Source: an uncultured Alistipes sp.
GTDB taxonomy: Bacteria > Bacteroidota > Bacteroidia > Bacteroidales > Rikenellaceae
DNA: 12,622 nt
Assembly (NCBI GenBank): GCA_947173915.1
Contig: CAMWGZ010000019.1
Location: forward strand, 1 to 12,622
Direction: 5' to 3'
The notes under the pieces are model-generated. The model was not told the DNA's origin. It saw only the letters and a program-made list of their open reading frames with translations, and searched no databases. Positions 2,977 to 12,565 of the stretch are shown piece by piece. Made by a program: the position numbers and the translations under genes. The first letter of the stretch is position 1. Each line of letters begins with the position of its first letter.

Positions 2977-3736
2977 CCGAGCGGGGAAGGGTCTCGCCCT
3001 CGGGTTCGCCCTTCAGCTCGTCGCGCCATCGGGCCGCGACGTGGGAGCCGTCGCAGTAGGGCTTGTTGCCCGAGCGGCCGCAGCGGCACAGCACCGCCCG
3101 GTTGCGCACCTCGAAGGCGCCGCCGTCCTCGCGCCGGATCTCGATTCCGCCGCGCACCCACAATCCGCCGCTGACCCCGAGCGCGGGATCCTCGATCAGC
3201 CCCAGGCTCGGCTCGAAACGGAACTCGTAGGGCCGTCCGGTGCGGTTGTCCCAGGCCGTGAGGCGGGCGCTCGGACAGAGCGATGCCTCCCGCACGGCCT
3301 GCTTCCGGTTGCCGGGCAGCGCATCCTTTTCGGTCAGCTCCCAGACTCCCCCGCCGGGATGGCAGAAGCGTGCGAAGACGCAATATTTCTCGTTGTCGTG
3401 GAGCGTGATGCGCTCTCCGGCAGTAATCGTCGCATGCGCCGACATGCGCTCCGGCGGCGACGTGACCGCCGGCTCCCAGTCGGCCCGAAGATGGGTCCCG
3501 TCGCAATAGGGCTTGTCCGCCGAACGGCCGCAGCGGCAGAGCGCCGTCGGCTCCCGGTCGGTCGGGAAGGCGGCTCCCCGGCGGAAACACCAGCTCTCCC
3601 CCGCGGCATCGGGCACGATGAACTGCATGGCCAGGGGAGGATGTCCGAAGACGAGATAGGGTCCCTTGTCGGTTACCGTGATGGAAACGGCTGTTTCGGA
3701 GGCCCGCTTCCCGGCCTCGTTTTTCAATTCGCTCAT
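2963..3736 (-). CDS. double CDGSH iron-sulfur protein
   Basis: This 257-residue protein has two complete CDGSH motifs of the type CxC-x8-C-x3-H, each binding one [2Fe-2S] cluster through three Cys and one His. The first is CRCGRSADKPYCDGTH (C67, C69, C78, H82) and the second CRCGRSGNKPYCDGSH (C217, C219, C228, H232). Between them is a conserved middle region with ITLHDNEKYCVFARFC (C119, C125), LCPSARLTAWD (C154) and PSLGLIEDPALGVSGGLWVR. I recognise this layout from bacterial multi-domain CDGSH proteins, and the three middle cysteines recur in that family, so a further metal site is possible. CDGSH proteins act in redox sensing, electron transfer or cluster transfer, but the role of this bacterial type is unknown. 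No signal peptide is seen, so it should be cytoplasmic. The gene stands alone and is divergent from the repeat-promoter region and the lipoprotein gene. Confidence 0.92.
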   Translation of the reverse strand: MSELKNEAGKRASETAVSITVTDKGPYLVFGHPPLAMQFIVPDAAGESWCFRRGAAFPTDREPTALCRCGRSADKPYCDGTHLRADWEPAVTSPPERMSAHATITAGERITLHDNEKYCVFARFCHPGGGVWELTEKDALPGNRKQAVREASLCPSARLTAWDNRTGRPYEFRFEPSLGLIEDPALGVSGGLWVRGGIEIRREDGGAFEVRNRAVLCRCGRSGNKPYCDGSHVAARWRDELKGEPEGETLPRSAAAK

Positions 3737-3754
3737 ATACTATACTTCATCTAT

Positions 3755-3785
3755 CGACGTTATGTTCCGGTGTTACCGACCGCAA
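3755..3785 (-). promoter_or_regulatory. weak candidate promoter of the CDGSH gene
   Basis: Read on the - strand, TTG (3783-3785) is followed after 20 bases by TAACGTCG (3755-3762), a partial match to the Bacteroidetes -7 box TAnnTTTG. The spacing is right and the box lies 19 bases before the start codon. Two of the three central Ts are missing, so confidence is low. No other candidate is visible in this gap. Confidence 0.3.
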
Positions 3786-3825
3786 TAATCGTTCCCGCGG
3801 ACGGTTTATCCGGAGGGAAACTGCG

Positions 3826-3864
3826 GAGGCATGTTTTTTGCCTCTTCGGCTGCGCTCGGACACG
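3826..3864 (+). repeat. possible degenerate fourth copy of the promoter hairpin repeat
   Basis: A small hairpin (GAGGCA at 3826-3831 pairing with TGCCTC at 3839-3844) is followed by TTCGGCTGCGCTCGGA, which resembles the hairpin-plus-tail order of the three units downstream. It lacks the TATCTTTG box. It is read here as a decayed copy, which is an inference from order and partial likeness only. Confidence 0.35.
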
Positions 3865-3868
3865 CCTC

Positions 3869-3931
3869 AGATACTTCGCCTCGGCAAAACACAAGCGGAC
3901 TTGCTTTTGCCCTCGCTTATTCGTACCTTTG
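3869..3931 (+). repeat. promoter-carrying palindromic repeat, unit A
   Basis: This 63-bp unit has outer arms AGATAC (3869-3874) and GTACCT (3923-3928) and an inner hairpin, GCAAAA..CAAG cgga CTTG.TTTTGC (3884-3910). The TTG in the right inner arm (3901-3903) is 20 bases from TACCTTTG (3924-3931), a full match to the Bacteroidetes -33/-7 promoter on the + strand. A 10-base linker GCTTCGCCTT (3932-3941) joins it to unit B. Confidence 0.8.
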
Positions 3932-3941
3932 GCTTCGCCTT

Positions 3942-4005
3942 AGATATTTCGCCTCAACAAAACGCAAACATGTTTGGTTTTGTATTCGGCTTATGCGTAT
4001 CTTTG
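3942..4005 (+). repeat. promoter-carrying palindromic repeat, unit B
   Basis: This 64-bp unit has outer arms AGATAT (3942-3947) and GTATCT (3997-4002). Its inner hairpin at 3958-3982 pairs CAAAA.CAAAC with GTTTG.TTTTG around AT. TTTG (3973-3976) is 21 bases before TATCTTTG (3998-4005), again a complete promoter match on the + strand. The linker to unit C (4006-4015) is identical to the A-B linker. Confidence 0.8.
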
Positions 4006-4015
4006 GCTTCGCCTT

Positions 4016-4081
4016 AGATACTGCGCCTCGGAAAAAATGCAAGCGGGCTTGCTTTTTTCGCTCGGCTTATGCGTATCTTTG
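4016..4081 (+). promoter_or_regulatory. repeat unit C, the proximal promoter of the FISUMP lipoprotein gene
   Basis: This 66-bp unit has outer arms AGATAC (4016-4021) and GTATCT (4073-4078). Its inner hairpin (4031-4059) pairs GAAAAAA.GCAAGC with GCTTGCTTTTTTC around GG. The TTG at 4049-4051 lies 22 bases before TATCTTTG (4074-4081), matching the Bacteroidetes primary sigma-factor promoter. The -7 box ends 35 bases before the ATG at 4117, giving a leader of roughly 28 bases. Units A and B would give longer leaders, containing the downstream hairpins. Confidence 0.78.
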
Positions 4082-4116
4082 TCCCGACAGATACATAGAC
4101 CATAGCAAGTTTGATT

Positions 4117-5541
4117 ATGACAAACAGAATTTCATCCCGTCTGCTCCTCTGCCTCGCAACCGCGATCGCAGCGATCGTCGCCTCGTGCAATAAAAACGAC
4201 GGTCCGATCGGCACCCTCGCCTTCGCACGGAACGTCTGCCTGATCGAGAAGGCGGGCGGTACGGCCTCCGTCGAATTTACGGCCGTCAATATCGTCGCCG
4301 TCGCGCTCTCGGACATCCCCTCGGGCTGGACCGTCACGGCCGACCTGACGACGCACCGCGTGGAGATAACCGCCCCGGCCGCCGGAGCCGAAGAGGCGGT
4401 GCAGGAGGGGACGCTCAAGCTGACCGGACAGGATACCCGCGGCCATACCCTCACGGCCGAGCTGCGGGTGGGAATCGGCTCCACGATCGACCTCACGGCC
4501 GCACCCTCGAACTGTTACGTGCTCAACCGGGCCGATGCCTACTACTCGATCGACGTGACGCGCAAAGGCGAAAAGGGCGAAGCGATCGACCCGGTAAAGG
4601 TCGATCTGCTCTGGGCGACCTCGCGGAACATGATCGCCAACCTCACGCTCTCGGACGGTGTCGCCTCGTTCCTGCTTCTCTCCGACAAGAAGGGGCAGTT
4701 CATCGAAGGCAACGCCCTGATCGCCGCACTCGACGCAAACGACCGGGTGCTCTGGAGCTGGCACCTCTGGATCACGGAATACGATCCCGAGACCGAATAC
4801 GTTACCTCGGCGGCGGGCGACCGATTCATGACCCGCAACCTGGGAGCCGGAGCCGACACCAACGGCACGACGGAGGAGATTCTCGCCTCCTACGGACTCT
4901 ACTATCAGTGGGGACGGCCCACCCCCCTCATCGGCCCGCAATACTACGACTGCGCCTACGGCATGGACCACGCGATGTTCAACCTGCGCAACAACTTTAC
5001 CTACCTGGACATGGTCGAATCGAGTCCCCTGACCGGCACCGTGGAATATGCGGTAGCCTTCCCGATGAGTTTCATTCTGGGTGTCGAGGCCTCGGGATAC
5101 GACTGGCTCTACTCGGACCACGACAACGAGCTGTGGGGTGCGGTCAAAACGACCTACGACCCCTGCCCCAAAGGGTGGCGCACCCCCGACCGGGATGCTT
5201 TCGCACCGTTCGCGATCGGCGACGAACACGGTGCCGACCGCACCGACGCGCTGCGCATGGCCTACGGCTGGAACCTGACCGACGGTACGATGACCTCCTT
5301 CTTCCTGGGCGGCGGACGACGCAGCGCCCTGCTGGGCGGCATCCAGAACGTCAATACCAACGAAAACCCGCAGCCTTGGATCGGATGCTACTGGACCTGC
5401 GCCCCGGGCGACGGGGAGCTGAGCGCTTCGGCCATGTACTTCACGCTCGACACGGAGGATGCTTCGCACAGCGAATTCAAGCCCCGGGTGGACTACCACA
5501 GAGCCAACGGCTTCCAGCTCCGCTGCGTCAAAGAACAGTAA
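4117..5541 (+). CDS. FISUMP-domain lipoprotein with Ig/BACON-like N-terminal domain
   Basis: The ATG at 4117 is chosen over the TTG at 4111, giving 474 residues. Residues 1-23 form a lipoprotein signal ending in VAS-C24, so the protein should be lipid-anchored in the outer membrane, probably on the surface (inference). Residues about 35-125 look like an all-beta Ig/BACON-type module (GTLAFARNVCLIEKAGGTAS). A second module from about 130 has the Bacteroidales pattern SNCYVLNRADAYYSIDVTRK and ends with VLWSWHLWITEY. From about residue 229 to the end is a FISUMP domain (Fibrobacter succinogenes major paralogous domain), shown by FMTRNLGA, GLYYQWGRPTPLIG, YDPCPKGWRTPD (C350) and the terminal NGFQLRCVKE (C470). 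The two late cysteines may pair. FISUMP proteins are abundant surface proteins of gut Bacteroidetes with no proven biochemical role. The gene is single, with three tandem promoter repeats upstream and a clear terminator downstream. Confidence 0.9.
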   Translation: MTNRISSRLLLCLATAIAAIVASCNKNDGPIGTLAFARNVCLIEKAGGTASVEFTAVNIVAVALSDIPSGWTVTADLTTHRVEITAPAAGAEEAVQEGTLKLTGQDTRGHTLTAELRVGIGSTIDLTAAPSNCYVLNRADAYYSIDVTRKGEKGEAIDPVKVDLLWATSRNMIANLTLSDGVASFLLLSDKKGQFIEGNALIAALDANDRVLWSWHLWITEYDPETEYVTSAAGDRFMTRNLGAGADTNGTTEEILASYGLYYQWGRPTPLIGPQYYDCAYGMDHAMFNLRNNFTYLDMVESSPLTGTVEYAVAFPMSFILGVEASGYDWLYSDHDNELWGAVKTTYDPCPKGWRTPDRDAFAPFAIGDEHGADRTDALRMAYGWNLTDGTMTSFFLGGGRRSALLGGIQNVNTNENPQPWIGCYWTCAPGDGELSASAMYFTLDTEDASHSEFKPRVDYHRANGFQLRCVKEQ

Positions 5542-5652: not shown

Positions 5653-5726
5653 GGGAATGACGCGCAGGGAATGACGCTTCCGGGAATGACGCTTCCGGGA
5701 ATGACGCTTCCGGGAATGACGCTTCC
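5653..5726. repeat. 15-bp tandem repeat between convergent genes
   Basis: Four exact head-to-tail copies of GGGAATGACGCTTCC occupy 5667-5681, 5682-5696, 5697-5711 and 5712-5726. They are preceded by a diverged 14-base copy at 5653-5666. Each unit carries a short GGAA..TTCC dyad. The array lies between the terminators of the lipoprotein gene and the porin-like gene and shows no plausible start or gene. Confidence 0.92.
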
Positions 5727-5735
5727 GGGAGACGG

Positions 5736-6851: not shown

Positions 6852-8228
6852 CTACTTCTTCTGCTCCTCCTCCGGGGCGCGGCCTCCGCCGAGCGCCTGG
6901 TAGAGGTTCACGACACCCTGGATCTCGTCGAAACGATCGGCCACCTGCGAAAGCCGGGCCGAGAGCAGCGACTGCTGGGCGGTCAGCACCTCCAGGTAGG
7001 TGGTCGAGCCGTACTGCATGAGCAGCTCGGTGCTCTCGACGGCACGCTCCATCGCCTCGATCTGATTGCTCCGCAGGTCGGTCTTGGCACGCGCCGTCTG
7101 CGACTGGGTAAGCGCGTTGTTTACCTCCGCACCCGCATTGAGCAGTGCCTGACGGAACGAAAGCAGCGCCTCCTCCTGCTGGGCCTTCATGATCTTCACG
7201 CGCGCACGGTTGGCACCGGCGTTGAAGATCGGCTGCATGAGCGACGCGGCGGCCGACAGCAGCAGCTTGCCCGGATTGACGATCATCGCTCCGGCGCTGT
7301 TGGTCCACCCCGCCGTACCGCTGAGCGAGATCGACGGGTAGAGCGCCGAACGGGCTTCGGCCGTCGCATAGTAGGCCTGCATCAGCGCAAATTCGGCCGA
7401 GCGCACGTCGGGACGGTTCGCGAGCATCTGCACGGGGACACCCACCGCGAGCTGCTCCGGCAGTCGCTGCTCCTCGAGCGAGCCGCGCTCGATGGCGTGC
7501 GGTGCCTCGCCCAGCAGCGAACAGAGAGCATTTTCCACCGTCGTGAGGTTGTACTCCAGATCGTGCAGCGAAGCCTCGATCGAGTAGTAGTTGCCCTCGT
7601 ACTGGGCCACGCCCGCCTCGTTGGTCATGCCCGCCTCCTTCATGGCGCGCATGGTCTCGACGCTCTGCCGCCATTTGGCCGCCGTCTCCTGCGAAACGGC
7701 ATACTGCTCGTCGAGCATCAGCAGCGTGTAGTAGAGGTTGGCCGTCTGGGCGATGAGCTGCGTGCGGACCGCCTGCTCGTACTCCTTGCTCTGCAGGTGG
7801 AGCGCCCGGGCCTTGCGCTTGGCGTTGGTCAGCGAGTTGAAGATGTCGATCTGCCAGCCGGCCGTGACGGGAATGTTGTAGGTCTTCGAGGTATTCTTGT
7901 TGTCGAAGCTGCTGATGGCACCCTGCGGCGCGAAGTTGAACGACGGCAGGTAGGCCAGGCGCGCCGACTTGAGCGCCGCCTCGGTCTCCTTCACACGCCA
8001 ATGGGCCGACTGCATGTCGGTGTTGTCGGCCAGCGCCTGCTCGATGAGCCGCTGCAACAGCGGGTCGGTAAAGACCTCCTGCCAGGCCATGTCGCCCAGA
8101 GTCGTCTCGTCGGCCGTTTCGGCCGCGCCGTACAGCCCGTCGGTCTGGATCTCCGGACGCGAATAGGGCTTGTAGATGCCGCAGCCGACCAGAGCCGCCG
8201 CAGCCAGTATGACGATTATCTTTCTCAT
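6852..8228 (-). CDS. RND efflux outer-membrane channel lipoprotein (TolC/OprM, NodT family)
   Basis: This 458-residue protein is a normal-length outer-membrane factor. The signal MRKIIVILAAAALVG ends at a lipobox, C16, so it should be lipid-anchored like OprM. Family features are the early PEIQTDGLYG and WQEVFTDPLLQRLIEQAL, the two long helical repeats with AHWRVKETEAALKSARLAYLPS and RSAEFALMQAYYATAEARSALYPSISLSG, and the conserved ANRPDVR. These give the alpha-helical periplasmic tunnel and beta-barrel that take substrate from the pump across the outer membrane. A charged tail (APEEEQKK) ends the protein. It is the last gene of the operon, 5 bases after the pump gene, with AAGGAA shortly before its start. 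Which drugs or metabolites the system exports cannot be read from this sequence. Confidence 0.95.
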   Translation of the reverse strand: MRKIIVILAAAALVGCGIYKPYSRPEIQTDGLYGAAETADETTLGDMAWQEVFTDPLLQRLIEQALADNTDMQSAHWRVKETEAALKSARLAYLPSFNFAPQGAISSFDNKNTSKTYNIPVTAGWQIDIFNSLTNAKRKARALHLQSKEYEQAVRTQLIAQTANLYYTLLMLDEQYAVSQETAAKWRQSVETMRAMKEAGMTNEAGVAQYEGNYYSIEASLHDLEYNLTTVENALCSLLGEAPHAIERGSLEEQRLPEQLAVGVPVQMLANRPDVRSAEFALMQAYYATAEARSALYPSISLSGTAGWTNSAGAMIVNPGKLLLSAAASLMQPIFNAGANRARVKIMKAQQEEALLSFRQALLNAGAEVNNALTQSQTARAKTDLRSNQIEAMERAVESTELLMQYGSTTYLEVLTAQQSLLSARLSQVADRFDEIQGVVNLYQALGGGRAPEEEQKK

Positions 8229-8233
8229 AACGT

Positions 8234-11200
8234 TTATTCCTTGTTTTCATTCTTGCTGTCCTCGATCTCGGCGCTCACGGCCCAGTCGGGGGTATTGGTA
8301 AACTGCACCGGCTTGATCTTCTCCTGAAGGGTCTGGAAGACGATGAAAAGCGAAGGCACGAGGAACAGCAGCGCCAGCGTACCGACGATCATACCGCCCA
8401 CGACACCCGTACCGAGCGTCGAGTTGCCGTTGGCACCGACACCCGTCGCGAATACCAGCGGGATCATACCGAAGACCATCGTCAGCACGGTCATCAGGAT
8501 CGGGCGCAGACGCACCTTGGCGGCCGAAAGCGCGGCCTGCGTCAGCGACATGCCGCACAGACGGCGGTCGGCGGCGTACTCGGTCAGCAGGATCGCCGTC
8601 TTGGCCAGCAGACCGATCAGCATGATCAGACCCGTCTGGAGGTAGATGTTGTTCTCCAGCCCCATCAGCTTGGCGAAGAGGAACGAACCCATCAGACCGC
8701 ACGGCACCGAAAGGATGACGGCGAACGGAATCAGGAAGCTCTCGTAGAGCGCACTCAGGATCAGATAGATCAGCACGATACAGATGCCGAAGATGATCGC
8801 CGTGTTGCTGCCCGTCTGGCTCTCCTCGCGCGTCAGGCCGCCGAACTCGTAGCCGTAGCCCTTGGGCAGGGTCTGGGCGGCCACCTCCTCGATCGCCTTG
8901 ATCGCGTCGCCGTTCGAGTAGCCGGGCGCGGGGGTACCGTTCACCGCAATCGAGTTATACATGTTGAAGCGGCTGATGACCTCGGGACCATAGACCTTGG
9001 TCAGCGTCACGAACTGGCTCAGCGGAGCCATCTCGCCGTTCTGCATCCGCACATAGGAGTTGTTGAGCGACTCCGGATCGAGGCGGTATTTCGGATCGGC
9101 CTGGATCATCACGCGATAGACCTTCGAGAAGCGGTTGATGTTCGAGACGTACTGACCGCCGTAGTAACCCGACAGGGTCGAGAGCACCTCGGTGGGCGAG
9201 ATGCCGGCGCGCTTGGCCTTCGCCGCGTCGATATCGACGATGTACTGCGGGAAGTTGATGTTGAAGGTCGAGTAGGCCATCTGGATCTCGGGACGCTGGT
9301 TGAGCGCCGCGATGAATTGCAGATAGACGTTGTAGAAATCGGGGATCTCGCCGCCGGCACGGTCCTGCAGGTACATTTCGAAACCTGCAGAGGTGCCGTA
9401 ACCGGTAATCATCGGCGGGGCGACGGCGAAGATCTGCGCATTCTTGATGTCGGCCGTACGGGCGTAGATCTGTCCGATCACGGCACCCACGGCATCGCTC
9501 TTGTCGGGGCGCTCGTCCCAGTTCTTCAGCTTGACGATGCACATACCGTAGGAGTTACCCTGTCCGGCGATCATGCCGTAGCCGGCCACCTGCTGGAAGT
9601 CGCGGATCTGGGGGATGCTCTTCAGCCGCTCGCCCAGCAGTCTCATGACCTTGTTGGTCTCCGAAAGCGAACTGCCCGGCGCGGTGGTCACATTGACCAT
9701 GATCGTACCCTGGTCCTCATCGGGCACCATACCCGTCTTGGTGGTGTTCATCAGCACGACCAGCGCAGCAATCGCCAGTACGAGCGTGGACCACATGAGC
9801 CAGCGGCGCTTGATGAAGAACATGACACCGTACTTGTACTTATTGACCATCGTGTTGAAGGCCGCATTGAACGACTTGCGGAAGCGGGCGGCGAAGTTGT
9901 CGCGCATCTCGCCGTTCTCGTCCAGATAGGGTTTCAGCAGCAGCGCGCAGAGAGCCGGCGAGAGGGTCAGCGCGTTCAGCGCCGAGAGACCGACGGCCAC
10001 TGCCATCGTGATACCGAACTGCGTGTAGAAGGTTCCCGACGTACCGGCCATCATCGAGGTGGGGATGAACACCGCCATGAAGACGAGCGTCGAGGTCACG
10101 ATCGCCGAGGTAATGCCCGACATGGCATCGACGGTGGCCATGTACGACGACTTGTAGCCCACGTCGAAGCGGGCCTGCACCGCCTCGACTACGATGATCG
10201 CGTCATCGACCACCGTACCGATCGCAAGCACGAGGGCGAAGAGCGTCAGCAGGTTGATCGAGAAGCCGGCGAACGAGAGGAAGGCGAACGTACCGATCAG
10301 CGCCACGATGATCGAGACGGTCGGGATCAGCGTCGAACGGATGTCCTGAAGGAAGACGTACACCACGAGCACCACCAAGATGATCGCCTCGATCAGCGTC
10401 TTGATTACCTCCTGGATCGAGGCGTAGAGGTAGTCGTTCACACTCATCAGGTGGGTGATCTCGACCCCTTTCGGAAGCTCGGTGGCAATTTCGTCGAGCA
10501 GCGCATCAATCTCCTCGATGGTCTCGGTAGCGTTGGTACCCGCCGTCTGGAAGATCAAGGCCGCGATACCCGGGTGGCCGTTCACATAGCCGTTGTAGGC
10601 GTAGGACTCCTGGCCCAGTTCGATGTCGGCCACGTCCTTCAGGCGAAGCACCTGACCGTCGGAGGTCGAGCGGATGACAATCTCGCCGAACTCCTCGGGA
10701 GTCATCTTGCGGCCGCGGTACTTCATCGTGTATTGGAACGTATTGTCGGAGTTCTCGCCCAGCTGGCCGGCCGCCGACTCGATGTTCTGCTCGGAAAGGG
10801 CATAGGTCACGTCGGAGGGAACCAGCTTGTACTGCGCCATCACGTCGGGCTTCATCCAGATACGCATCGAATAGTCGCCGCCGAGGGCCATGAACTCGCC
10901 CACGCCGGCAATACGCTGGATGCGCGGCTTGATGTTGATATTGACGTAGTTGGAGAGGAACGACTCGTCGTAGGAGTCGTCGGGGCTGCTGAGCGTGAAT
11001 ACCTTCAGCATCGACGACTGGCGCTTCATCGTGGTCACGCCGATGCGCGTTACCTCGGCGGGCAGCGCTCCGGTGGCGGTCGCCACCTTGTTCTGCACGT
11101 TCACGGCCGCCATGTCGGCATCCGTCCCCTGCTTGAAGTAAATGGAGATCGAACCGCTGCCGGCGTTGGTGGCGTCGGATTTCATGTACATCATGTTCTC

Positions 11201-11419
11201 GACACCGTTGATCGCCTCCTCGAGCGGCACGATGACCGACTTCTGGATGGTCTCGGCGCTCGCACCCGGATAGGAGGCGCGCACCATGACCGTCGGAGGC
11301 GCAATGTCGGGATACTGCTCTACGGGCAGCGTCGCCAGACCGATCAGACCGCCCAGAACGATTACGATGGAGATGACCCCCGCCAATACCGGGCGGTCGA
11401 TAAAATGTTTCAGTGTCAT
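8234..11419 (-). CDS. RND efflux transporter, inner-membrane pump (AcrB/HAE1 family)
   Basis: This 1061-residue protein is a full-length hydrophobe/amphiphile efflux pump. It starts MTLKHFIDRPVLAGVISIVI with the first membrane helix. Two halves each have one helix, a large periplasmic porter/docking domain and five more helices. The proton-relay residues of E. coli AcrB are all present at nearly the same numbers: D405-D406 in GTVVDDAIIVVE (AcrB D407/D408), K940 in LLAKTAILLTEYAADRR (K940), R970 in VRLRPILMT (R971) and T977 (T978). The pump works as a trimer, using the proton gradient to bind periplasmic or membrane substrates and pass them to the outer-membrane channel. The start is 3 bases after the adaptor stop, with AAGGAGG at 11428-11434, 8 bases before the ATG. 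Substrates may include drugs, bile acids or detergents by family precedent, but none is shown. A charged C-terminal tail (SKNENKE) follows the last helix. Confidence 0.98.
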   Translation of the reverse strand: MTLKHFIDRPVLAGVISIVIVLGGLIGLATLPVEQYPDIAPPTVMVRASYPGASAETIQKSVIVPLEEAINGVENMMYMKSDATNAGSGSISIYFKQGTDADMAAVNVQNKVATATGALPAEVTRIGVTTMKRQSSMLKVFTLSSPDDSYDESFLSNYVNINIKPRIQRIAGVGEFMALGGDYSMRIWMKPDVMAQYKLVPSDVTYALSEQNIESAAGQLGENSDNTFQYTMKYRGRKMTPEEFGEIVIRSTSDGQVLRLKDVADIELGQESYAYNGYVNGHPGIAALIFQTAGTNATETIEEIDALLDEIATELPKGVEITHLMSVNDYLYASIQEVIKTLIEAIILVVLVVYVFLQDIRSTLIPTVSIIVALIGTFAFLSFAGFSINLLTLFALVLAIGTVVDDAIIVVEAVQARFDVGYKSSYMATVDAMSGITSAIVTSTLVFMAVFIPTSMMAGTSGTFYTQFGITMAVAVGLSALNALTLSPALCALLLKPYLDENGEMRDNFAARFRKSFNAAFNTMVNKYKYGVMFFIKRRWLMWSTLVLAIAALVVLMNTTKTGMVPDEDQGTIMVNVTTAPGSSLSETNKVMRLLGERLKSIPQIRDFQQVAGYGMIAGQGNSYGMCIVKLKNWDERPDKSDAVGAVIGQIYARTADIKNAQIFAVAPPMITGYGTSAGFEMYLQDRAGGEIPDFYNVYLQFIAALNQRPEIQMAYSTFNINFPQYIVDIDAAKAKRAGISPTEVLSTLSGYYGGQYVSNINRFSKVYRVMIQADPKYRLDPESLNNSYVRMQNGEMAPLSQFVTLTKVYGPEVISRFNMYNSIAVNGTPAPGYSNGDAIKAIEEVAAQTLPKGYGYEFGGLTREESQTGSNTAIIFGICIVLIYLILSALYESFLIPFAVILSVPCGLMGSFLFAKLMGLENNIYLQTGLIMLIGLLAKTAILLTEYAADRRLCGMSLTQAALSAAKVRLRPILMTVLTMVFGMIPLVFATGVGANGNSTLGTGVVGGMIVGTLALLFLVPSLFIVFQTLQEKIKPVQFTNTPDWAVSAEIEDSKNENKE

Positions 11420-11422
11420 ACG

Positions 11423-12565
11423 TTACTCCTCCTTTGCTTGTTGTTCGGCGGGCACCGTCGCTGCGGGCTTGGCCTTGATCGGGGTGCCCTCGCGCAGCAG
11501 GCCGACACCTTCGGCGACGATCTCCTCGCCCGGGGTAAGGCCGCCTGTCACGATGTACTCGCGGCCGTTGCTGAGCTTCGCGGCCGTAATGTTGGCCGAA
11601 GAGGCCACGCCGTTCTCTACCTTATATACATAGATCTTGTCCTGCAGCTCGTAAGTCGCGGCCTGCGGAACGACCAGGGCCTCCCGATAGGTATAGGGCA
11701 GCTGGATGTTGCCCGTGCTGCCGCTGTGGAGCAGACGGCCCTCGTTGGGGAAGACGGCACGGAGCTGCACGCTGCCCGTGGCGGGATCGATCACGCCGCT
11801 GATCGACTCGATGCGTCCCTCCTTGTCGTAAAACGACCCGTCGCTGAGCTGCAGCTGCACGGCGGGCAGGGCGGCCAGCGCCTTCTCCATCGAGCCGTGC
11901 TCGCGCGTGAGGTCGAGCAGCTGGTTCTCGTTCATCGAGAAATAGACGTACATCGACGAGTTGTCCGAAACGGTCGTCAGCGGCTGCGGAAGCGACGGGC
12001 TTACCAGCGCACCGACCCGGTAAGGCAGCGTGCCGACCACACCGGCCGACGGAGCCTTGACCACCGTATAGGAGAGGTTGTTAGCCGCATTGACGCGCTG
12101 CGCTTCGGCCTGGGCGAGCTGCGCCTTGGCCGTCAGCAGCTGATTCTCGGCCGTCGAAAGATCGAACTGCGAAACCACATTCTTGGCAAAAAGTTCCTTT
12201 TTGCTGTCATAGACCAGCTGGGCGGTAGCGACGGCCGCCTTGGCTGCGGCGACATTGGCTTCGGCCGTCTGCAGCGCCGCCTTGTAGGGCACCTGATCGA
12301 TCACGAAGAGCGTCTGCCCCTTCTTTACCACCTCGCCCTCGCTTACGCACCACTGCGAAACGGTACCCGACACCTGCGGATAGATGGCAATATCCTGCCG
12401 TCCGCGAATCGTCGCCGAATAGTTCACGGGAATGGTTACGTCGGCGGTCGAAACCGTCAGCACGGCATACTCCGCCTCTCCTCTGGGAGCCGGGGCCTGA
12501 CCGCACGATGCGACGGCCGCCATGCAGCATCCGCAAAAAACTGCCTGAATGAACTTTAGCTTCAT
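11423..12565 (-). CDS. RND efflux periplasmic adaptor lipoprotein (AcrA-type)
   Basis: This 380-residue protein is a normal-length membrane fusion protein. A lipoprotein signal ends at VAS-C21, anchoring it in the inner membrane. The order is typical: a first barrel strand set, then the first half of the lipoyl domain with RQDIAIYPQVSGTV, GEVVKKGQTLFVID and VPYKAALQTAEANVAA. An alpha-helical hairpin (about residues 95-165; KKELFAKNVVSQFDLSTAEN near its middle) and the second lipoyl half LSYTVVKAPSAGVVG follow. A beta-barrel and membrane-proximal domain end the protein (IDPATGSVQLRAVFPNEG, LVVPQAATYELQ). Adaptors bridge the pump and the outer-membrane channel and are needed for transport. The gene is first in the operon, and its last codons overlap the ribosome-binding site of the pump gene. 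No regulator gene lies in the window; if there is one it is beyond 12622. Confidence 0.96.
   Translation of the reverse strand: MKLKFIQAVFCGCCMAAVASCGQAPAPRGEAEYAVLTVSTADVTIPVNYSATIRGRQDIAIYPQVSGTVSQWCVSEGEVVKKGQTLFVIDQVPYKAALQTAEANVAAAKAAVATAQLVYDSKKELFAKNVVSQFDLSTAENQLLTAKAQLAQAEAQRVNAANNLSYTVVKAPSAGVVGTLPYRVGALVSPSLPQPLTTVSDNSSMYVYFSMNENQLLDLTREHGSMEKALAALPAVQLQLSDGSFYDKEGRIESISGVIDPATGSVQLRAVFPNEGRLLHSGSTGNIQLPYTYREALVVPQAATYELQDKIYVYKVENGVASSANITAAKLSNGREYIVTGGLTPGEEIVAEGVGLLREGTPIKAKPAATVPAEQQAKEE
11428..11434 (-). promoter_or_regulatory. canonical Shine-Dalgarno site for the pump gene
   Basis: AAGGAGG on the - strand lies 8 bases before the pump ATG and inside the last codons (Lys-Glu-Glu) of the adaptor gene. 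Bacteroidetes genes seldom rely on such sites, so its role is uncertain, but it supports the chosen start at 11419. Confidence 0.6.

Follow-up and report, generated by a model that had tools for sequence, protein, structure and literature searches.

Copies of one promoter standing before unrelated genes are known as putative mobile promoters, and their spread as promoter propagation. The Correia elements of Neisseria and the BOX elements of pneumococcus are small inverted-repeat elements that bring promoters, BOX elements being modular, and integron attC sites fold into imperfect hairpins whose stems vary while their bulges are conserved. Promoters of the Bacteroidetes have the consensus TTG / TAnnTTTG. 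The BrickBuilt MITE of Porphyromonas gingivalis showed promoter activity in E. coli and was likened by its authors to a putative mobile promoter (PMC4596501). In IS608, an internal guide base-pairs with a short target, and insertion takes place on the 3' side of that target (PMC6006769).

The array described here lies in a 12,622-nucleotide stretch of DNA from an uncultured Alistipes sp., which as a whole we call the window, and consists of units that resemble each of these systems in some respects. Like BrickBuilt, they occur in the Bacteroidales and are intergenic, dispersed and internally tandemly repeated; BrickBuilt differs in its 23-nt bricks with a leader and a tail, its 19 copies, its bidirectional promoters and its distance of 49-591 nt from genes (PMC4596501), whereas the promoter unit is a hairpin of 63-66 bp and has a single predicted promoter, directed outward, whose own -7 box would replace that of the gene. 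Like REP, REPIN and BIME sequences, the units are short palindromes outside genes, present in many copies that may form arrays, and their stems covary (PMC6006769), but they are longer, have three helices and sit 5' of genes at the -7 box, and no linked RAYT was found. With putative mobile promoters they share the copying of one promoter before unrelated genes, although here, unlike there, unit structure, insertion point, stacking order and exchange between sister species can be read. Correia and BOX elements occur in other taxa, have other ends and are not known to be bound to the -7 box of the gene that they serve. Similarities to IS200/IS605-derived elements and attC sites lie in the imperfect pairing of the hairpins, in stems that vary while bulges are conserved, and in head-to-tail stacking, but the arm of the promoter unit has at least 6 bases rather than being a tetranucleotide guide, and the units are known without a transposase or integrase. 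The family is best placed with mobile promoters and promoter-bearing MITEs, not with REP in the strict sense; as judged from search listings, no description of it was found in the literature.

The array and its surroundings, all on the plus strand, comprise the following features.

3842..3868, + strand: possible end of an older unit, a relic left of unit A (60% ungapped match; weak)
3869..3931, + strand: unit A, 63 bp, subtype T1, farthest from the gene and more decayed than B or C (covariance-model match 76.4 bits)
3901-3903 and 3924-3931, + strand: TTG and box TACCTTTG of unit A
3932..3941, + strand: linker GCTTCGCCTT, which with the preceding G forms a GGC-TTC-GCC mini-hairpin
3942..4005, + strand: unit B, 64 bp, subtype T2 (covariance-model match 70 bits)
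3974-3976 and 3998-4005, + strand: TTG and box TATCTTTG of unit B
4006..4015, + strand: linker GCTTCGCCTT; TATCTTTGGCTTCGCCTTAGATA, spanning the joint, could form an alternative hairpin (z -3.05 for 3998-4024)
4016..4081, + strand: unit C, 66 bp, subtype T3, gene-proximal (covariance-model match 72 bits)
4049-4051 and 4074-4081, + strand: TTG and box TATCTTTG of unit C, the proposed working promoter
4117..5538, + strand: downstream gene for a putative lipoprotein of 474 aa (ASC lipobox by eye), its ATG 35 nt past the C box

Much of this had been recognized in the initial annotation. The three units with their identical linker, the TTG in the right inner arm (20, 21 and 22 nt 5' of the box in A, B and C) and two exact 20-base repeats (3927-3946 = 4001-4020; 3986-4005 = 4062-4081) are all present in the sequence. 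The outer arms AGATAC/GTATCT, which had been given for every unit, are exact in C; A has AGATAC/GTACCT, with one mismatch, and B has AGATAT/GTATCT, with a G-T pair. A TAnnTTTG box does close the right end of every unit, its wording now corrected to the two forms listed above. Each unit combines paired outer arms with a short middle helix and a long inner hairpin, and TRF reports the array as 2.9 copies of 73 bp (3863-4081, score 266). At other places, AACTTCGTT is found at the linker position instead of GCTTCGCCTT. No sigma-70 consensus promoter was found in 3700-4300 of the window, as is to be expected of a Bacteroidetes-type promoter. The lipoprotein gene has no Pfam match at E 0.001.

Folded as single-stranded DNA, the single units do only moderately better than shuffles (z -2.1, -1.8 and -2.4 for A, B and C); it is the family that takes them beyond chance, with 26 BLAST matches, 49 covariance-model matches and covariation over 58 units. 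In alignment A1, whose consensus structure was drawn by eye, 93.2% of cells pair, compared with 84.1% after shuffling and 33-51% when slid, and the covariation score is 0.272 versus 0.121, with 0 of 500 shuffles as high. Nine of 18 pairs changed on both sides, a weak measure that 41 of 500 shuffles equal. The middle helix is paired in 58 of 67 parsed units (one was unparsed), mainly as GC/GC, GCC/GGC or GTC/GAC, and the outer arms are paired in 94.8% of cells in A1 and 89.3% in alignment A2, making them terminal inverted repeats of the kind found in MITEs. Unconstrained RNAalifold returned the inner helix only (energy -0.47). Compensatory change in the stems had been suggested from the three units alone, and in both alignments the changes seen in relatives do preserve pairing. 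Such covariation shows a history of pairing, not function, because arm-templated correction in replication could yield the same changes without selection. Identity with a known RNA family was considered and rejected: the window gave no match at Rfam gathering scores and an E-value scan of 3740-4200 a single match at chance level, and units at 13 other loci matched nothing in Rfam.

The initial annotation had proposed a covariance-model search for further copies, with attention to their orientation relative to genes. A BLAST search with the window array against the host assembly (G000; 1.36 Mb in 214 contigs, about 85% complete) gave 26 matches, self included, and a covariance model, for which 58 units from five genomes were used, found 49 units at 27 places (E 0.01 or better). 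Two of these places, L008 and L213, run off contig ends; at all 25 readable places the box end faces a gene start. An ORF begins 17-128 nt downstream of the box in 18 cases and 19-27 nt downstream in six more, the distance at L216 being counted from its box, which lies just outside the model match. In addition, a tRNA-Leu lies 10 nt after a unit box, which leaves room for a transcription start only directly after the box and so gives the best position evidence of box use. Among the 18 ORFs at 17-128 nt, which were those tested, 17 belong to Pfam families, including pheS, ychF, tgt, recF, nadC and dnaE; the exception is the window gene. The genes downstream of host arrays are unrelated to each other and mostly housekeeping. 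Similar promoter sequence thus precedes non-homologous genes and varies between close relatives, which is the working definition of a mobile promoter.

Of 151 genomes sampled across the genus, 24 have no match at E 0.001 and the other 127 have between 1 and at least 35 each. An earlier proposal of a mobile, REP-like supplier of promoters is upheld as far as dispersal and gene-facing orientation go, though not as a REP in the strict, RAYT-linked sense. Exact matches to the joint were found in 29 stretches of GTDB species genomes, by record title 23 in Alistipes, 3 in Rikenellaceae, 2 in Porphyromonadaceae and 1 in a Bacteroidales bacterium. BLAST alone matched 8 of 61 genomes, all of the genus and the host included; the genus-only range that this implied was rejected, as the covariance model matches other families and the limit of BLAST is one of sensitivity. 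There was no match among 72,556 plasmid records. Two unannotated faecal 'Bacteriophage sp.' records, MT838894.1 and MT838590.1, carry weakly matching unit-like stretches.

Units within the window array are less alike than units at different genes. A, B and C are 75-82% identical to one another (B and C, 77%), whereas B reaches 94% identity with units at L006 and L002. C is 97% identical to a unit at ychF, and its identity to the gene-proximal units of four genes other than its own is 94-97%. These identities contradict the recent duplication of units that had been read from the 20-base repeats. Sorted against five subtype consensus strings, drawn by hand from G000 and its relatives, T3 is gene-proximal at five G000 genes, with 62-66 of 66 bases identical. 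The nearest relative lies in the unit's own array for 0.8 of 27 units in G000 (1.3 by chance) and for 0.5 of 10 in G007 (1.8 by chance). Local duplication was rejected for G000, where nearest relatives lie elsewhere and the window array holds three subtypes; same-array relatives exceed chance in G002 (5.0 of 19 versus 1.9) and G012 (3.0 of 6 versus 0.9), so local duplication also occurs.

The order of units within arrays appears to reflect age. Arrays of two or more units number 48; the gene-proximal unit deviates less from its consensus than its neighbour does in 31 of them, by the same amount in 6 and more in 11 (sign test p 0.0014). Over 67 arrays, with 4 repeats of already counted loci dropped, boxes are intact in 64 of 67 gene-proximal units and in 56 of 78 others (p 1e-4), where gene-proximal means the last unit detectable by the search, a definition that may itself favour intact boxes. 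Damage to 22 of 78 upstream boxes, against 3 of 67 beside the gene, weakens the idea of a multi-promoter control region and fits one working promoter accompanied by relics. The age order, as read from these sequences, fits either selection on a working promoter or recent arrival; of the two, arrival agrees better with the five T3 copies.

Sister species G144 is very close to the host (YchF 98% identical) and allows promoters to be compared gene by gene. Nineteen downstream pieces of G000 were searched in G144 and 18 were found, all but the tRNA locus. Gene starts match at 83-100%, and in none of the 18 promoters is the -7 box displaced by more than 4 nt. Over the last 63 nt up to the box, however, the two species match at 94-100% in 6 of 18 and at 65-86%, with a different unit, in 10 of 18; in the other two, L003 and L010, G144 has no unit. 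In place of A, B and C at the window locus, G144 carries a single T1 unit; it is 79% identical to A, and its orthology to A is not sure. T3 is gene-proximal at none of the five G144 orthologues of the G000 T3 genes, while a T3-like unit common to both species at L011 indicates that the subtype is older than their split. Where subtypes are swapped within nearly identical flanks (L019, L020, L009), foreign sequence must have arrived in one of the two species. Taken gene by gene, the differences fit either gain in G000 or loss in G144. Loss by recombination between units could contribute to the differences between species, including that at the window.

A wider comparison was made at ychF. Arrays were detected in 9 of 30 species and in none of the other 21, a count that leaves out relic-like stretches in G009 and G104. 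On the protein tree the array state requires at least 8 changes, 4 of them forced by well supported branches, and its clustering is no greater than with shuffled labels. Sisters with and without arrays have similar distances from box to ATG: 54 and 54 nt in G000 and G144, 27 and 26 in G163 and G130 (fork support 90/43) and 27 and 30 in G007 and G009 (81/80). Upstream flanks of ychF in G000 and G144 do not align. In G163 a native promoter, recognized by way of array-free G130, lies with its box left of the array, and the native leader follows the last box. The same locus (L121) contains two tandem chimeras of about 108 bp, each joining the left end of a unit to a terminator-like hairpin and a native-looking promoter, which looks like the capture of a native promoter.

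Outside the genus, the covariance model matched 30 of 198 Bacteroidales genomes, host included, in 25 of 151 genera, and six non-host genomes have 11 to at least 27 matches. Units of other families have CGCTCGG...CTCGCTTA in common, but not the arms. In 42 aligned units of this kind each of the six outer pairs is somewhere altered on both sides, with a covariation score of 0.497 versus 0.155. Forty places, in ten genomes, were read among those listed: 21 have a TAnnTTTG box and an ORF within 150 nt, 14 have neither, 2 have the box only and 3 the ORF only (Fisher p 2.8e-6, over places that are not independent, near-identical G285 copies included). With 21 places having both and 14 neither, the promoter form is, on this reading, one state of a wider palindrome family. 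In G285, L196-L201 and L179 are near-identical palindromes with the same core and arms GTTGC/GCAAC, lacking a -7 box and not lying before a gene start. At L172, in G292, two box-less units with arms TTTTGC/GCAAAA lie about 330 bp 5' of a 16S rRNA gene.

We propose that the three units of the window array are stacked members of a dispersed, non-coding palindromic family with a period of 73-76 bp, here called promoter units. Each would bring a Bacteroidetes-type promoter, with the -33 TTG in the inner right arm and the -7 TAnnTTTG overlapping the outer arm. A unit would arrive directly after an existing -7 box, carrying its own copy of it, so that the gene keeps a -7 box in place and only the upstream half of the promoter is exchanged. 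Repeated arrivals would stack head to tail with the newest adjoining the gene, and displaced units would lose function and decay. From the comparisons above we consider it likely that the family is a mobile promoter unit of this kind, inserting at the -7 box and re-creating it. The gene-proximal unit would be the working promoter, and arrival would be by insertion, not by conversion of one unit into another. The hairpin presumably serves movement rather than transcription; both the promoter activity of the unit and its mobility are deduced from sequence comparison.

If such units move, a mobiliser might be expected in the genomes that carry them. Y1_Tnp had no match in G000 (an assembly about 85% complete) and was found in only 1 of 30 genomes of the genus and in 3 of 8 others; REP_Tyr_transpos was above cut-off in none of 20 genomes and below it in 2. 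Eight Y1 matches were read (L135, L206-L212), with only loose motif matches alongside and no unit. Strict membership of REP/RAYT was rejected, no unit adjoining any Y1-type match read. At L209, L210 and L211 (G292, G175) are genes of 179-184 aa that resemble REP-associated tyrosine transposases, fall under the NCBIfam cut-off and are not flanked by units. A GTAG/GTGG (or CGTC) tag was not seen by eye at the unit foot in A1 and A2, nor were attC boxes GTTRRRY/RYYYAAC in A1. A box of the TATCTTTG type is present on both sides of units, the right copy being also the unit's own end and hence indistinguishable from a target-site duplication. By analogy with IS608, the left arm could act as a guide, AGATAC pairing with the -7 box GTATCT and steering a single-stranded unit to insert just after the box, a speculation that we regard as rather unlikely. 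Were it true, a change of arm would be a change of target, with the other arms of relatives lying off promoters and box-spelling arms at promoters, and the unit would be a selfish element with a target at almost every gene that survives insertion, the box being re-created.

The scarcity of Y1 transposases bears on how units spread. In 29 of 30 genus genomes no Y1 transposase was found, and units may have no dedicated mobiliser, spreading by template switching or short-homology recombination. About 10 bases, CGTATCTTTG, bound every unit and also occur at ordinary -7 boxes; hairpins would stall replication, and the nascent strand would hop out and back. The same box flanking every unit, also left of first units, the replacement of whole units with flanks kept and the G163 chimeras, in which the left end of a unit is joined to a native-looking promoter, all agree with this, and arm-templated correction would yield compensatory changes without selection. 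On its own, however, such switching leaves the conserved CGCTCGG..CTCGCTTA across families with different arms unexplained, as it does the near-identical copies at many loci, and we hold it to be a real but somewhat doubtful possibility. The other route is that of REP/BIME elements mobilized by a RAYT (TnpA-REP) which escaped the searches or whose locus is extinct or incomplete. Palindromic, extragenic, tandem units are what it would produce, PMC6006769 describes a Bacteroidetes TnpA-Y1 subclass, 2.6, with atypical secondary structures, and there are the weak REP_Tyr_transpos matches in G292 and G175. Set against the counts of Y1_Tnp in the genus and beyond it, the empty result above the REP_Tyr_transpos cut-off and the lack of units beside the Y1 matches, this seems distinctly unlikely.

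Two further explanations dispense with mobility in the usual sense. Pairing retained across families could mark a selected cis-regulatory or terminator structure, such as an RNA leader switch, an insulator or a dimer-binding palindrome, and a terminator scan picks out unit C on both strands. But subtypes T4 and T5 have not retained the terminator T-runs, the presumed start in a single-unit array falls downstream of the hairpin, which would leave the hairpin out of the RNA, the served genes are unrelated, presence flips between sisters and the window has no Rfam match; a fixed structure is improbable to a similar degree. Classic tandem duplication of one promoter per gene, followed by concerted evolution among genes, would account for the regular 73-76 bp period and for some local similarity in G002 and G012. 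Arrays of mixed subtypes and subtype swaps at the same gene between sister species speak against it, and the distant nearest relatives of G000 units already contradict it for that genome, leaving it the most improbable of these explanations.

If the mobile promoter unit is the right reading, promoters of core genes in a common gut genus have been repeatedly replaced by a stacking mobile element. Promoters of old genes would then differ between sister species, with past promoters recorded upstream of each gene, and regulatory turnover in bacteria would become directly datable. Caution would be needed in inferring regulons from common upstream motifs in these species, and the units would offer a ready-made promoter series for Bacteroidales. 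It also raises the question of what moves a 73-bp hairpin where genomes show no evident transposase for the unit.

Other parts of the window carry features of their own. At 5653-5730, 3' of the lipoprotein gene, lies a minisatellite of 5.3 copies of the 15-bp sequence GGGAATGACGCTTCC (95% matches). Adjoining NfeD and FloA genes occupy 438-1889, and an outer membrane efflux / RND / membrane-fusion gene set lies on the minus strand at 6852-12565.
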